Of a DNA stretch of 64,000 nucleotides, positions 57,153 through 64,000 are shown in pieces; within the stretch, counting starts at the first letter, position 1; each line of letters begins with the position of its first letter. Both the position numbers and the translations under genes were made by a program. This DNA is from Desulfosporosinus youngiae DSM 17734. GTDB lineage: Bacteria > Bacillota > Desulfitobacteriia > Desulfitobacteriales > Desulfitobacteriaceae. The stretch is taken from NCBI RefSeq assembly GCF_000244895.1, contig NZ_CM001441.1, positions 3,430,226-3,494,225 on the forward strand, in the 5' to 3' direction. The notes beneath the pieces are model-generated. The model made no database searches and was not told the origin of the DNA. It worked only from the letters and a program-made list of their open reading frames with translations.

Positions 57153-57862
57153 TAATACCACTTCCTTTCCTTCAATTAACCGTCCCTTCGCATATCCTTG
57201 GTATTTTCCGTTCACCTTGCTTAATTCCACATGTTTGACCTGTCTCTGCTTTTTCCCAATCGGAATACTTAAGCATTCCGGGACTCCAACATGGCTTCTG
57301 GTTCTTGCCTATATCTGCGGCCTGATCATCATATAGTTTCCGTTAAGTGAAGATTATCACTGTTTTAGCATTATGTCGATAGGTTATACGAATTATTACA
57401 ATCAATATTTTTTATGAATATTCGTTTGAAAGCTAAAGTCTGTTTTTCTTTCGATACTCCAATTTTCTATAACCTTTGATCATGAATATTATCCACTGAC
57501 TCTTCATGATGCCTAGGAAAAATAATGTTCATACAAGAACCCAGGCTAAAGCCCGGGCTTTTCCATTAAATATATCATCAAATATATAAATCATAGCTTA
57601 ATAATCACAATTTTCAAAATATAATCATTGTTTTAATATGATATAATACAGGCAGCTTTCAAGCATTCCAGCCCTAGCAATCCCTTGCAATCATCGTTTT
57701 ATAGGCCTTCTTCCCCAAATTAATGTCGTAAAATTCCCATTAAAACGGCGATACTCTGTACATCTAGAAGCAGCTTCATGGCAATATTAAATACTTAATA
57801 CCTAATATAACAAGTTATTTAACTTACAGAAGATTTAAACTTGTCTGTTGGAGGTATTTTTT
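57153..57862. other. AT-rich gap before the sigma-54 activator gene
   Basis: About 700 bases without a complete gene. 57153-57320 continues the open frame of the repeat protein on the minus strand but without a ribosome site. A terminator-like stem CCCAGGC/GCCCGGG with one mismatch, then CTTTT, lies at about 57540-57563. The remainder is very AT-rich; no -24/-12 or -35/-10 pair was confidently picked. Confidence 0.4.
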
Positions 57863-59326
57863 TTGCAAAATGATAAAATAGCGGAACTTAAAAAGGAAAA
57901 TGAAGAACTAAAAATAGAGAATGAAAAACTGAAAATAGAAAACGAATTGCTTAAAACCATTATTGATAATATTCACGAATCGGTCATTGCGGTCAATAAA
58001 AACGATGAGATCATTCTCTATAACTGCGAATCAGAAAAAATGGAAGGGCTTAACCGAAACGATGTCTTAGGGAAAAAAGAAGATGATGTATATGCCCCGC
58101 CTTTTTACTTTTCAGACGAAGTTGTAAAAAAAGTATTGCGAACAGGCATAGCCGTAATTGAACAGCCCTATTGGTATTACTTAAATGACGGCAGACAAAC
58201 GAACATGATCTTCAGCGTGTTTCCTTATTTATACAAGGGACAAATCTTCGGGGCTTATATTATCTTTCGCAATGTGAATCAGATGAGTGATTTTATAGCA
58301 AGGACATTAGAAATGCGGAAAAGGTTTTTCGAGGATGAAACTACCTCTCAAACGGGGGCTGTGTTTCTTCTGGACCATATCATTGGAAGCGGCTCGATAA
58401 AAAAGATCAAGGAAGAAGCACGCAGTATTGCCCGCCGCGACTCACCGGTATTAATCGTTGGGGAAACCGGCACAGGAAAAGAACTTTTTTCTCAAGGTAT
58501 TCATAATGCCAGTTTGCGGTCAAAAGGTCCTTTTATATCTGTCAATTGTGCCGCTATTCCCGAAACGCTCTTCGAAAGCCTGCTCTTCGGCACCGTTAAA
58601 GGTGCTTTTACCGGTGCCGTTGAAACCCCCGGCCTGTTTGAACAAGCCGAAGATGGAACGATTTTCTTTGATGAAATTAATTCCATGCCCCTTTTCCTGC
58701 AGGCTAAACTGCTGAGAGTATTACAGGTCAAATCCATTCAAAGAATCGGAAGCACAGTTCAAAAACCTATCAATTGCAGAATTATAAGTGCCACAAATAA
58801 TGATCCTGTTGAAGCCATTGAACGAAAACTTATCCGGTCCGACTTATATTTCCGTTTAGCAACCATCACCTTAAACATTCCTCCCCTAAGAGAACGAAAA
58901 GAAGATATAAACTATCTGGCCGCAAGCTTTATTAAGAAATATAACCTTAAATTTGGCTTATTTGTTGATAACATTGCAGAGGAATTGCTTAACCTTTTTG
59001 ATGAATATTACTGGCCAGGCAATGTTCGGGAGTTGGAAAACTTTATTGAAGGTGCTATGAATTTTGTTCAAGATAAGGATAAGACATTAAATTTGCACCA
59101 TTTACCGGAATATTTCAGAAAAAGAATTCTTTCTAATAAAAAATCTCCAGTAAATACTATAGTTTCTGATAAAAAGCTTCAAAGCGTTTTATCAGAAACT
59201 GAAAAAGAAATGATAGAAAGTATCCTGGCACAAAACAATAGAAATATCACTAAAACGGCGCGGGAATTGGGTATTTCCAGACAAAATTTATATTATAAAT
59301 TTAAAATATTGGGCATTAAAAAATAG
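57863..59326 (+). CDS. Sigma-54-dependent transcriptional activator (PAS-AAA+-HTH)
   Basis: A 487-residue activator. A coiled coil of Lys/Glu/Leu heptads (about 8-35) is followed by a PAS domain (about 38-140, IDNIHESVIAVNKNDEIILY in pattern) and an AAA+ domain with GETGTGKELFSQG, the sigma-54-contacting GAFTGA loop, and GTIFFDEINSMP. R-finger-region residues are present (RLATITLNIPPLRERKEDI). A Fis-type helix-turn-helix ends it (NITKTARELGISRQNLYYK). The start is TTG at 57863, 8 bases after GGAGG. It stops with TAG and is convergent with the methyltransferase operon, which it may control. Confidence 0.9.
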   Translation: MQNDKIAELKKENEELKIENEKLKIENELLKTIIDNIHESVIAVNKNDEIILYNCESEKMEGLNRNDVLGKKEDDVYAPPFYFSDEVVKKVLRTGIAVIEQPYWYYLNDGRQTNMIFSVFPYLYKGQIFGAYIIFRNVNQMSDFIARTLEMRKRFFEDETTSQTGAVFLLDHIIGSGSIKKIKEEARSIARRDSPVLIVGETGTGKELFSQGIHNASLRSKGPFISVNCAAIPETLFESLLFGTVKGAFTGAVETPGLFEQAEDGTIFFDEINSMPLFLQAKLLRVLQVKSIQRIGSTVQKPINCRIISATNNDPVEAIERKLIRSDLYFRLATITLNIPPLRERKEDINYLAASFIKKYNLKFGLFVDNIAEELLNLFDEYYWPGNVRELENFIEGAMNFVQDKDKTLNLHHLPEYFRKRILSNKKSPVNTIVSDKKLQSVLSETEKEMIESILAQNNRNITKTARELGISRQNLYYKFKILGIKK

Positions 59327-59336
59327 TATTTTTAAA

Positions 59337-61100
59337 TCACAAACTTAAAGCCTTCATGAAGACCGTTTGAAAATCCCTTCGGGCCGATAATTCGATATGC
59401 ACAGTTCGGCCGGCCAATGCTTCGGCCCGGGTTCTTTCTTCTTTGGAAAGCAAGGCTATCTTGGCACCATCCCCGGCTGCGTTACCGACAGTGGTTATTT
59501 TATCGAGCGGAAGAGAAGGGAGAAGTCCGATGCTCACAGCATTTTCTTTTTTAATATAATGACCAAATGCTCCCGCAATCAGTACACGGTCGATTGCTTC
59601 CGCACTCACCTTCATTTCCTGGAGCAGAAGCTGTATCCCCGCCATAATAGCTCCTTTAGCCAACTGTAATTTACGGATATCCTTTTGAGTAAGTACAACA
59701 TCCTCGCCCGTGGCCGAATCCTTACTCCAAACCAGGATAAATTCACTTTTCTGATCGTCATTACGTAACCGCTCCCTGACCGCCGGAGGCAGCTTCTCCA
59801 GTTGATCTGCTTTGCTCGTCAGCCGCCCGGATGCTTCGATAATACCACTTTTTCGTAGTTGAGCGATAGCATCAATCAGACCGGAACCACAGATGCCTCT
59901 GGGTTTGCTGCCGCCAATCACTGCCAACTCTACGTCATCACCGATTAAAACCCCTTCTATAGCACCCTCGGCAGCTCGCATTCCGCAGTTTATCTCAGCC
60001 CCTTCAAAGGCGGGTCCGGCTGCTGCGGAACAAGTGAGTATTTGCTTATTGCCGGCTAGAATTATTTCACCATTGGTACCAATATCAATCGCTAAACTCA
60101 GGCCGGGAAGGCGGTCGATTCCGGTGGACAGCATGACGCCTACGGTATCAGAGCCAACATAGCCCGCGATATTCGGTAAGACGACGACCTTGCCCGACTC
60201 TAAAATACGGAGACCTAATTCCTTAGCCTCAACCTCAACAGCTTGCCGGAAAACGGGAATAAAGGGTGCCGTCGCCAAATAAGTGGGGTCAATGCCCAGA
60301 AACAAATGGCTCATCGTCGTATTGCCAACAACGACCGCTTGATAAATTTCCTGATGGTCTATTCCAGCCGCTTCACAGAGCTGGGCAATAATTTCGTTGA
60401 GCGCATTGATTAGTTTCACCTGAAGCTGGCGTCGTTTATCTGAATCCTCTGAAGCGTAGGTAATGCGTGAAATAACATCCGCCCCAAAAACATGCTGGGG
60501 ATTCGTAATAGCCCCGCTAGTGAGGACAGTACCATTATTCAGATCCATAAGGTAGGCCGCCACAGTGGTCGTGCCAATATCCACCGAAAGACCATAGCTG
60601 CGCTCCAGCGTTTCTCCCTCTTCCACTGCCAGCAGGAAATTCTCATCGAGTACCGCCGTCACACGAAATTGTGCTTTCTGCAGCGTCTCTGGCAAATTTG
60701 CCGCGACCCGTCGGTTAAATGGGATTGTACGATTGGACAAAGCTGCCAATAGACGCTCCCAGTCCGGTGTTTGGTTTTTAGCACTGGGCTTTTCAACCTG
60801 TACATGGTATTTACGAATACTTGGCGCTATCATAATATCTTTAAGATGGTTTAGAGAGAGCTTTCGTTCAAACGCATCTTTTTGTACATTGAGCTCTACC
60901 GTCAAATCCTGTTCTATCATATGCTGGCAAGCCAAAACCCAACCGTCTGAGGAAATTTGCACTTTGCATTTGCCGCACGTCCCTCTGCCGCCGCAGGTAC
61001 TTTGTATCTGTACTCCGGCTGCCACAGCAGCCTGCAAAATAGTGCTGCCCATCGGAACTTCAACTGATTTGCGGAAGGGTAAAAAGGTTACCTTAGCCAT
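59337..61100 (-). CDS. Corrinoid-protein reactivase (RACo/RamA-type, 2Fe-2S + ASKHA domain)
   Basis: A 587-residue protein for ATP-dependent reduction of Co(II) to Co(I) in corrinoid methyltransferase systems. The N-terminal 2Fe-2S ferredoxin domain has CGGRGTCGKC (about 36-45) and a fourth Cys in LACQH (about 58). The large C-terminal DUF4445/ASKHA part has SVDIGTTTVAAYLMDL (about 178-193), AIDIGTNGEIILAG and GAFGHYI. This is the bacterial 2Fe-2S RACo layout, not the 4Fe-4S RamA of methanogens. The ATG at 61100 follows AAGGTGTGA. It is the last gene of the operon, after mtbC-type and mtbB genes. Confidence 0.92.
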   Translation of the reverse strand: MAKVTFLPFRKSVEVPMGSTILQAAVAAGVQIQSTCGGRGTCGKCKVQISSDGWVLACQHMIEQDLTVELNVQKDAFERKLSLNHLKDIMIAPSIRKYHVQVEKPSAKNQTPDWERLLAALSNRTIPFNRRVAANLPETLQKAQFRVTAVLDENFLLAVEEGETLERSYGLSVDIGTTTVAAYLMDLNNGTVLTSGAITNPQHVFGADVISRITYASEDSDKRRQLQVKLINALNEIIAQLCEAAGIDHQEIYQAVVVGNTTMSHLFLGIDPTYLATAPFIPVFRQAVEVEAKELGLRILESGKVVVLPNIAGYVGSDTVGVMLSTGIDRLPGLSLAIDIGTNGEIILAGNKQILTCSAAAGPAFEGAEINCGMRAAEGAIEGVLIGDDVELAVIGGSKPRGICGSGLIDAIAQLRKSGIIEASGRLTSKADQLEKLPPAVRERLRNDDQKSEFILVWSKDSATGEDVVLTQKDIRKLQLAKGAIMAGIQLLLQEMKVSAEAIDRVLIAGAFGHYIKKENAVSIGLLPSLPLDKITTVGNAAGDGAKIALLSKEERTRAEALAGRTVHIELSARRDFQTVFMKALSL

Positions 61101-61205: not shown

Positions 61206-61847
61206 TTATGCTTTCACCATTTCAAGAATTTTTTTGACTCCATCATTGGCATTTTCCGCATAAGCATCAGCCCCGATTTTGTCCGCATATCGTTGCGTTA
61301 CAGGAGCTCCGCCAATGATCGTCTTGAATTTGTCACGAACTCCCCTTTCGCGGAGTGCATCCTCCAGCTTTTTCATGTTTTTCATGGTCGTGTTAAGTAA
61401 TGCACTTGTACCGATAACGTCAACTTCATATTCCAAAGCTTTATCAATGATCTCATCGACGGGGATATCATTACCTATGTCATAAACATCCATGCCATGA
61501 ACCCTAAACAAGGAAACAACAAGACCTTTGCCAATATCGTGAATATCCCCTTCAACGGTTGCGATTAAGGCTTTAATGCTTTTAGTTTGTTCGGCTGGAG
61601 GAATGGCATCATTTAAAATCGTTACCGCGTTCTTCATAGCATCAGAACTTACCATAAGTTCAGGCAAGAAGAATTTGCCCCTGTCAAAAAGATCGCCTAC
61701 CTTATTAATCCCCACTGTGAAGCCCTTTTCGATAACTTCTAAAGGGTCTAATCCTTCGGCCAAGGCCCGCTTGGCTATTTCTACAGCTTTGGCCTCATCT
61801 CCATCTATAATGGATTGCGCCGCTAGTTCAAACAGTTCATTACTCAT
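61206..61847 (-). CDS. Methylamine-type corrinoid protein (MtbC-like)
   Basis: A 213-residue cobalamin carrier of the methyltransferase system. The N-terminal helical cap (about 1-88, with FLPELMVSSDAM) is followed by the B12-binding Rossmann domain. The cobalt-ligand His is H103 in EGDIHDIGKGLV. Further contacts are VIGTSALLNTTM and TIIGGAPVTQRYADKIGADAY. Sequence alone does not separate MtmC, MtbC and MttC; mtbB upstream favours the dimethylamine type. The ATG at 61847 follows GGGGAGGGG. Confidence 0.9.
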   Translation of the reverse strand: MSNELFELAAQSIIDGDEAKAVEIAKRALAEGLDPLEVIEKGFTVGINKVGDLFDRGKFFLPELMVSSDAMKNAVTILNDAIPPAEQTKSIKALIATVEGDIHDIGKGLVVSLFRVHGMDVYDIGNDIPVDEIIDKALEYEVDVIGTSALLNTTMKNMKKLEDALRERGVRDKFKTIIGGAPVTQRYADKIGADAYAENANDGVKKILEMVKA

Positions 61848-62043: not shown

Positions 62044-63423
62044 TTACTTAACTCTTTTCTTAAAACGCTCGACACAGTTGATTTCAATATCGAGCAATTT
62101 AGCGATATTATGTTTCGCTTCAATGCCCTTAGCAGCGGTGGCGATTGAGTGGATTCTGCCAATATCAAGGTCTTCTCTCACTTCATCCATCACTACCGGA
62201 TCAACTAAATCTTCTACAGAAACTTTTAATTTTCCGGCAACATATGCTTTCGCTTCATTTAAGCGCATTCCCTTAGACATTTGCATACGTGCTACCAGAT
62301 CTCCGGCAGTACGTACTCCGCCCATGCCTGCGGCCATTGCATGACTTATTGCCATTCCGAAAGGATCGCCCACGCCTACCTATAATCCGTCTAACCGGCC
62401 AATCTCGGTCATTGCGACGGAGGCCCGGCTCAAAGCATCGACAGGTGGAGTATCGACAATCGGAATACCTCCAACTCCCATTCCCATGTTGGCATGAACC
62501 GGAATACTGGAAGCTTCCGTGCAGGCTTTGCACATGGTTACAGCCCGGGTGATGTCATAAGCGAAGGAGTGACTGCTATTAATGTTAACCACGGGGCCAA
62601 AGATGGTTACTCCGGCCTTTTCAGCTAATTTAACCTGCTCATGGGGATATAAGCCAGCCAGTTTTACTCCATCATAATAAAGGTCCCCATGCATACCTAA
62701 CACGTATTCTCCAGCCATACCCATTTCAATGCATATATCAGGATATTTCTTCTTTAGAATTTCAGTGGCTTTCAGTGTTGCGTAAAAATCAGCATCACCA
62801 GCGGAGCCCGTTGTGTCAAAGTTAATCCCATCTGCACCGGCCTCGTACATCTTGCTCGACGTAAAAACGAGGTCGTGAATCATTAATTCAATGGATTCAT
62901 CATAGGCTGCCCGGGCTTCTTTAATTTTACCCTTTGGCAATAGGGTAATCGGGTTAGCAGCGGGTCCGTCAGGGTAGCTGTAAAGTGCCATATTCGGCAT
63001 TGCTCCGTAAAATAAAGGAAGAGTCGTAACAAGTTGTGCTTGTTCCATTGTGGCTTGTTCTTCGTGAATAATGGGCTTCGTGGGTTTATAGCTGTAGTCT
63101 ACGTGAGCCAGCTCAGCAGTATCAGCACCAAAACACCGTTCGTATATTTGTAAGTCTTGAATTCTGCCGATAGAGATTCCCAAGCGCATCAGCTTAACGC
63201 TGCCCTCATCATAGGTCAGAACTAATTCTTTACCAGGTTCAACCCCTACAAACCGGCCTTTTCTAGTGATAATCTCCAGCAAATGTTTTTGATCATCCTC
63301 AGAAAGAGGAGCACAATTGGCACGGTCTGCGGCATCAATGGTGGCATTTTCGATGTCTTTTTTGATTTCGTCCACCGACATTTCTACTCGCAAGCCGTCG
63401 CCTAGTCTGGTTGTAATAGTCAT
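62044..63423 (-). CDS. mtbB: Dimethylamine:corrinoid methyltransferase with in-frame amber codon (pyrrolysine)
   Basis: Transfers a methyl group from dimethylamine to the corrinoid protein. The reading frame is one 460-codon gene (459 residues) broken only by TAG at 62380-62382, codon 348. Both sides match the MtbB family: before it [17 protein letters not shown] and GRLDGL, after it [19 protein letters not shown] and [17 protein letters not shown]. In Methanosarcina MtbB the pyrrolysine stands in the same context (DGI-Pyl-IGVGDP). The N-terminal part has [36 protein letters not shown] and the conserved [25 protein letters not shown] at 63423 follows GAAAGGAGC; a TTG two codons earlier is inside the ribosome site. 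Confidence 0.95.
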
Positions 63424-63495: not shown

Positions 63496-64000
63496 TTACG
63501 CGTTGGCAATTCCGCTTCTTACCGCTTTAAGATAAGCCATACATCGTTTATCTCTATCCACGAGGACCTCGGAGGCATAGAGTAAGGCCATTATTTTTTT
63601 ATCCAAGGGATCGATAATTACAGAATCCATTCCTTTAGCAATACACATTACGAAGAACGCCTGATTTAAAAGTTTCCTTTCAGGCAGTCCAAAGGAAACA
63701 TTACTCAAGCCGCAAGTGGTATGAATTCCTTGGTAACGCTTATTAATTTCTTCTAATGTAGTTAATACCTCATTACCAAAACTCGTGTTTACACTAACAG
63801 GCTTAACTAAGGGATCTAAAAATACATCGCCTAAGCCTATCCCGGCACTGGCGAAACTATCACAGAGCTTCTCAACTATAACTAAACGTTCTTCTGCGGT
63901 GTTTGGCATGCCGTTATCATCCATGCATAAGGCAATAACTTTAGCGTTATATTTTTTAATCAGCGGAATTATCGCTTCAAGTTTTTCTTTTTCAGCTGTA
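63496..64000 (-). CDS. Methyltetrahydrofolate:corrinoid methyltransferase, C-terminal part (cut by window edge)
   Basis: At least 168 C-terminal residues of a pterin-binding TIM-barrel protein of the AcsE/MtgA/MtvA group; the frame runs off the right edge with no start in sight. Visible marks are VIALCMDDNGMPNTAEERL, DVFLDPLVKPVS and TCGLSNVSFGLPERKLLNQAF (in pattern), the last being the pterin-site motif of methyl-THF methyltransferases. It should move the methyl group from the corrinoid protein to tetrahydrofolate. It precedes mtbB by 72 bases in the same direction. Confidence 0.88.
   Translation of the reverse strand, partial: TAEKEKLEAIIPLIKKYNAKVIALCMDDNGMPNTAEERLVIVEKLCDSFASAGIGLGDVFLDPLVKPVSVNTSFGNEVLTTLEEINKRYQGIHTTCGLSNVSFGLPERKLLNQAFFVMCIAKGMDSVIIDPLDKKIMALLYASEVLVDRDKRCMAYLKAVRSGIANA

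Follow-up and report, generated by a model that had tools for sequence, protein, structure and literature searches.

A single mtbB gene across an in-frame UAG

Does the UAG codon within a dimethylamine methyltransferase gene of Desulfosporosinus youngiae end the protein, or is it read as pyrrolysine (Pyl)? The window, i.e. the whole 64,000-nucleotide stretch of DNA analysed here, corresponds to C1:3430226-3494225 of a host genome that consists of a single contig (C1) of 5,660,978 bases. An earlier note, drawn from the letters of the window, had joined two abutting minus-strand frames into one MtbB gene with TAG as its only interruption. We confirmed that 62044-63423(-) is one full-length MtbB gene with a TAG at 62380-62382 as the sole interruption, and the coordinates, strand, and frame in that note are exact.

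62044..63423 (-): mtbB, dimethylamine:corrinoid methyltransferase, 459 residues, of which residue 348 (UAG) is the predicted pyrrolysine
62380..62382 (-): in-frame UAG, codon 348; all 38 relatives have TAG in this alignment column

The gene starts with ATG at 63423, with AAAGGAG ahead of it, ends with TAA at 62044-62046, and is the sole mtbB copy in the 5.66-Mb genome. The family assignment was upheld across the TAG, as the alignment of the read-through protein to Pfam Dimeth_Pyl (PF09505) is continuous over residues 4-456 of 459 (699.5 bits, E 2e-210; cut-off 25 bits), and its score against the NCBIfam equivalog TIGR02368 is 539.7 bits (cut-off 369.1). When compared with the nearest relative (L036), codons 349-459 show 79% identity and a pN/pS of 0.21, and codons 1-347 show 81% identity and a pN/pS of 0.15; purifying selection on the codons past the TAG equals that before it.

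To follow the codon through the family, we recovered 38 MtbB homologues using peptide patterns free of the TAG site, from genomes of Bacillota, Chloroflexota, Thermodesulfobacteriota, Myxococcota, Actinomycetota, Aminicenantes, and Methanomassiliicoccales. The placement of the amber codon at residue 348 holds, with TAG found in the same alignment column in every one of them; in the archaeal Methanomassiliicoccales proteins, this column falls at their residues 350-351. Moreover, in a phylum-wide sample of 398 genomes, 17 have MtbB, and all 32 full-length genes among them (own gene included) contain exactly one TAG, as do the full-length matches from the MtbB family search. No MtbB without the TAG was seen among the 38 homologues, in the family search, or in the 398-genome sample. 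A sequencing error or a pseudogene was rejected, since the same codon is present in every relative.

An AlphaFold2 model of MtbB, computed with 30 homologues and lysine placed at position 348, gave a TIM barrel (pLDDT 93.8, pTM 0.93) in which residue 348 lies within the last barrel strand (346-349). Its best structural matches are the barrels of cobalamin-dependent methionine synthases (Z 19.1, 3.2 Å over 252 residues with 12% identity). No sequence relative of MtbB was found in the PDB, and the absence of MtmB and MttB from the 50 structural matches listed excludes nothing.

Pyrrolysine genes in the host genome

The earlier note had supposed that the host carries Pyl machinery outside the window, and had named the lack of any pyl gene in the genome as a refutation. 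That check, run here, found the genes present and left the reading standing. The genome holds one pylSc (412.7 bits), three pylSn, two tRNA-Pyl genes, three pylB, three pylD, and two pylC, and the scored copies of pylB, pylC, and pylD are all above the NCBIfam cut-offs. Both tRNA-Pyl genes have a CUA anticodon, and ARAGORN and the tRNA-Pyl covariance model agree on their identity; one lies at C1:667618-667689 with pylSc directly after it, and the other at C1:2896485-2896556.

C1:677567-677893 (L009): pylSn, intact
C1:4388126-4388449 (-) (L010): pylSn, intact
C1:1672269-1672571 (L011): pylSn, intact
Locus A: pylT, pylSc, pylB, pylD, pylSn
Locus B: pylB, pylC remnant, pylD, pylSn
Locus C: pylB, pylC, pylD, pylSn
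Locus D: pylT, pylC

These genes are thus spread over four loci, with a complete set in none. Between pylB and pylD of cassette B, the pylC remnant comprises 41 residues (L010:10817-10939(-)). A strict account in which two loci repair each other is weakened by the second pylC and second pylT at C1:2.896-2.899 Mb. All six gene kinds of the Desulfitobacterium-type split-PylRS cassettes (pylT, pylSc, pylB, pylC, pylD, and pylSn) also occur in the host, and cassette A resembles that of one compared genome (G004; PylSc 82% identical). The host differs from such cassettes in having its genes in four incomplete loci, with three PylSn to one PylSc and two tRNA-Pyl.

The three PylSn copies display low nonsynonymous change with high or saturated synonymous change (dN/dS of 0.03-0.06 where computable for copies A and C; pN of 0.08-0.09 versus pS of 0.77-0.97 for copy B). 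This imbalance shows purifying selection on all three, so that the extra copies are being retained. PylSn outnumbering PylSc recurs in the genus.

Other arrangements were noticed around these loci. Certain congeners (G010 and G016, loci L140 and L141; also G020:C35) have a second, divergent PylSn-PylSc-tRNA-Pyl set besides another PylSc, with about 50% identity between the divergent PylSc and the host's own; this is possibly a case of two Pyl systems in one bacterium. An extra locus in another congener (L130; G018 C1:3160000-3179900) has pylD only as fragments and no pylSc, and keeps pylC, pylT, pylB, and pylSn. By eye, a microcompartment-like operon of the ethanolamine/propanediol type follows a sigma-54-type site 3' of cassette C (L011:10234-19800).

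The mtbB operon and its predicted role

On the same strand, mtbB is the second gene in an operon of the order mtgA-like, mtbB, mtbC-like, and RACo-like.

63496..64000 (-): MtgA-like methyl-tetrahydrofolate:corrinoid methyltransferase (PF00809, PRK07535 model)
61206..61847 (-): cognate corrinoid protein, MtbC-like (B12-binding domains; TIGR02370 pyl_corrinoid 228.5 bits, cut-off 215.3)
59337..61100 (-): RACo-like ATP-dependent corrinoid reductive activase (PF14574, PF17651, PF17650, PF00111)
57848..59326 (+): PAS / sigma-54 enhancer-binding regulator (PF00158, PF02954), convergent with the mtbB operon

The mtgA-like gene continues outside the window (complete at L012:3722-4519), the MtbC-like protein scores below the MtbC equivalog cut-off, and the RACo-like activase carries an N-terminal 2Fe-2S domain. 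Taking the gene, its neighbours, and the pyl loci together, we are close to certain that residue 348 of MtbB is pyrrolysine, which the host's split PylRS, tRNA-Pyl, and PylBCD would supply to this dimethylamine corrinoid operon. From the sequences we infer this residue together with its decoding, the substrate, the direction of methyl transfer, and the regulation. In this scheme, Pyl would be made by PylB, PylC, and PylD, encoded elsewhere in the genome, loaded by the split PylRS (PylSc plus PylSn) onto tRNA-Pyl(CUA), and inserted by this tRNA at UAG 348 as an active-site residue. MtbB would then demethylate dimethylamine and load the methyl group onto the Co(I) corrinoid protein of the next gene in the operon, from which the MtgA-like enzyme would pass it to tetrahydrofolate, and the RACo-like protein would re-reduce corrinoid that has become inactivated. 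Dimethylamine is the putative substrate of MtbB by family alone. Given Pyl-type MttB genes (four of the MttB family, with one TAG each, occur in the host genome) and no MtmB found in that genome, the predicted route runs from trimethylamine through dimethylamine to methylamine. A supposed internal TAA in one MttB (L014) was discarded, as this protein is open throughout and the stop was the edge of the match.

As for regulation, a -24/-12 site, TGGCATCAAAGTTGCT, lies ~100 nt 5' of mtgA (L012:4615-4630(-)), ~390-400 bases outside the window. The sigma-54-type search pattern TGGCAYN5TTGCW has one match in the 20-kb mtbB locus versus 0.07 expected (at least one in 14 of 200 shuffles), and two in pyl locus A versus 0.03 expected. 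In the 64-kb window, for which 0.28 matches would be expected, it has none. Taken by itself, the lone promoter-like match in the 20-kb locus is weak evidence. Similar sites precede the mttCB and pylB operons in relatives, and the regulator beside mtbB is 66% identical to one beside mttB and pyl cassette A. The mtbB operon probably has a sigma-54 promoter, with the neighbouring enhancer-binding protein as its activator. Across the loci, sigma-54-type sites (L012:4615-4630(-), L009:830 and 6305, L011:6243, and L154:8257) stand before mtbB, mttCB, pylB, and pylT-pylC operons, whereas none precedes pylT-pylSc of locus A, a pattern that would fit separate control of the two PylRS halves. In the literature covered, no paper mentioned pylSn together with sigma-54, and the host species name led to chemistry papers only.

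An RNA stem-loop downstream of the UAG

Whether an mRNA signal aids Pyl decoding of UAG became an unsettled matter when the PYLIS element of mtmB proved non-essential; this element is nonetheless stimulatory, as its removal lowered the full-length product (PMC2933860). In that study, "nothing similar" was seen in mtbB, and a later prediction, from about 2013, gave mtbB a structure of its own (PMC3639795).

62283..62382 (-): PYLIS_2 (RF02509) match, 79.5 bits against a gathering score of 36, with the UAG as its exact start
62288..62313 (-): selected RNA stem-loop (covariation and synonymous conservation)

As the region is coding and Rfam built PYLIS_2 from mtbB, a hit alone is no proof of function, and the stem was therefore tested apart from Rfam. 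Counted from the U of UAG, it occupies columns 70-95 (stem CGU.CUGCCGG, loop AGAU, CUGGUAG.ACG). Folded alone, these 26 nt give -11.7 kcal/mol (z -2.98), while the folding energy of the 100 nt past the UAG is overall not unusual (z -0.75). For the 3' hairpin (columns 74-80/85-91) in 32 mtbB, standard pairs make up 92.9% versus 86.6% when shuffled, and 13 two-sided changes compare with 4.0 in shuffles, with 0 of 500 shuffles reaching either value. Synonymous conservation in this first set ranks codons 374, 347, and 376 first, second, and third of 138. After the stem hypothesis had been formed, the phylum search supplied 28 genes as a second set, though, with both sets taken as they stood, near relatives may span them (e.g., L163 looks close to L036). 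Both results recur here: codons 374, 376, 373, and 375 rank 1, 2, 3, and 5 of 175, and with the window's own sequence added, the hairpin has 93.1% versus 87.6% pairs and 12 two-sided changes versus 3.2.

Among 528 third-position couplings in 56 distinct bacterial mtbB from both sets, the top three (72-93, 75-90, and 78-87) nest exactly within a single stem. All 56 sequences retain pair 78-87, as C-G, U-G, U-A, or G-C, and phylogenetically independent contrasts run the compensatory way by about 5:0, 5:0, and 6:0, each at or near the smallest reachable p. The stem 70-95 nt after the UAG is thus very likely under selection at synonymous sites. Covariation does not clearly extend to the whole PYLIS_2 fold, in that the 5' helix forms pairs no more often than shuffles do in the first set (67.6% vs 68.0%) and just slightly more often in the second (62.7 vs 62.0), although only 35 of 500 shuffles reached its covariation score there. 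The selected stem equals the 3' hairpin of Rfam PYLIS_2 (columns 73-92; PMC3639795), extended outward by 70-95, 71-94, and 72-93, and differs from the Rfam model in that the 5' helix lacks clear support. A shared stem-loop in mttB was rejected, as the motif was not found in 32 distinct bacterial mttB stretches after the UAG, and pair 78-87 is mismatched in all three archaeal mtbB examined.

Codon choice near the UAG was noted in both genes. Most mtbB (24/31 and 19/28 in two sets) use UUG for the leucine directly 5' of the UAG, a share far above UUG usage elsewhere in the gene; in the window it is UUA (62383-62385). In 33 Pyl-type bacterial mttB, the strongest synonymous bias is the AGC codon for serine, third after the TAG (residue 333 of the L009 mttB; AGC in 25/31).

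That the hairpin has been kept suggests that it does something. Tentatively, in bacterial mtbB a cis-acting stem-loop ~70 nt after the UAG may promote Pyl decoding or protect the message when decoding fails; within that reading it would be mtbB-specific, given a motif without a match in the 32 mttB and a pair 78-87 that cannot form in the three archaeal genes. A related proposal is that Pyl is inserted and the stem-loop sets a regulated ratio of full-length to truncated MtbB, which would add to the Pyl reading, not replace it. Selection on the stem at synonymous sites, accompanied by compensatory changes in both gene sets, and the lowered product upon PYLIS removal in mtmB (PMC2933860), speak for it. 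Against it, a role in mRNA stability or message folding would give the same pattern, and comparison cannot part the stem from the TAG, as all mtbB have one. A ribosome with UAG in its A site has a footprint that ends short of ~70 nt downstream. The stem lies beyond this footprint, so a direct, SECIS-like action is doubtful, and we consider the regulated ratio possible but somewhat less than probable.

Other readings of the UAG

Two further readings would do without Pyl. If the TAG were a plain stop, whether of a pseudogene or a true one, only a 347-residue fragment would be made. Indeed, UAG is an ordinary stop for other host genes (e.g., pylD of cassette A), ending about 29 of 159 long frames by a mechanical count over eight host regions, and termination must therefore compete at the mtbB codon. 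However, equal purifying selection on either side of the codon, its fixation in all relatives, and the complete Pyl gene set in the host make this reading highly improbable. Equally remote, and with nothing found in its favour, is decoding as a standard amino acid by a near-cognate or suppressor tRNA, as both ARAGORN and the covariance model identify the CUA tRNA genes found in the host as tRNA-Pyl (one beside pylSc), and in archaeal MtbB, mass spectrometry showed this site to be occupied by Pyl (PMC2933860).

Relation to known systems

The host MtbB belongs with the archaeal MtbB of Methanosarcina and Methanomassiliicoccales in one family (PF09505 and TIGR02368), at ~45-50% identity, and three Methanomassiliicoccales proteins share its TAG column. 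Unlike these, the host gene has tetrahydrofolate-linked (MtgA-like) partners and a RACo-like activase. Full-length MtbB with one TAG in the same place also occurs in Natroniella, Halanaerobiaceae MAGs, Desulfosporosinus congeners, Sporomusa ovata, and deltaproteobacteria. In the phylogeny, the window MtbB shares a clade (support 98/98) with those of Halanaerobiales and an uncultured Clostridia MAG, apart from those of three congeners, which are placed in a Sporomusa clade. Because a single clade of the four same-genus proteins is rejected (delta lnL 283, p-AU 2e-4), the host species probably acquired its mtbB separately from its congeners.

Pyl in bacterial MtbB is already published, and the gene kind is known (PMC8318568, PMC3639795). 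A 2013 survey reported clusters including Pyl-coded mtbB, with D. orientis among the genomes surveyed (PMC3639795), and mtbB has been reported in a Peptococcaceae genome (PMC6778437) and a Pyl-containing dimethylamine methyltransferase in deltaproteobacteria (PMC8318568), whereas mtbB was still described in 2014 as nearly confined to Methanosarcinales (PMC3941956). The mtbB finding itself is therefore mostly ordinary, and what goes beyond the known is the RNA stem under selection and the scattered pyl genes.

For the organism, this adds one more correctly read Pyl gene, where a standard gene caller would split mtbB, and predicts a route of dimethylamine use for a probable sulfate reducer. Three selected PylSn beside one PylSc raise the question of how a split PylRS assembles. 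For the family, third-position covariation that runs in the same direction in independent lineages indicates that the stem is real in bacterial mtbB.
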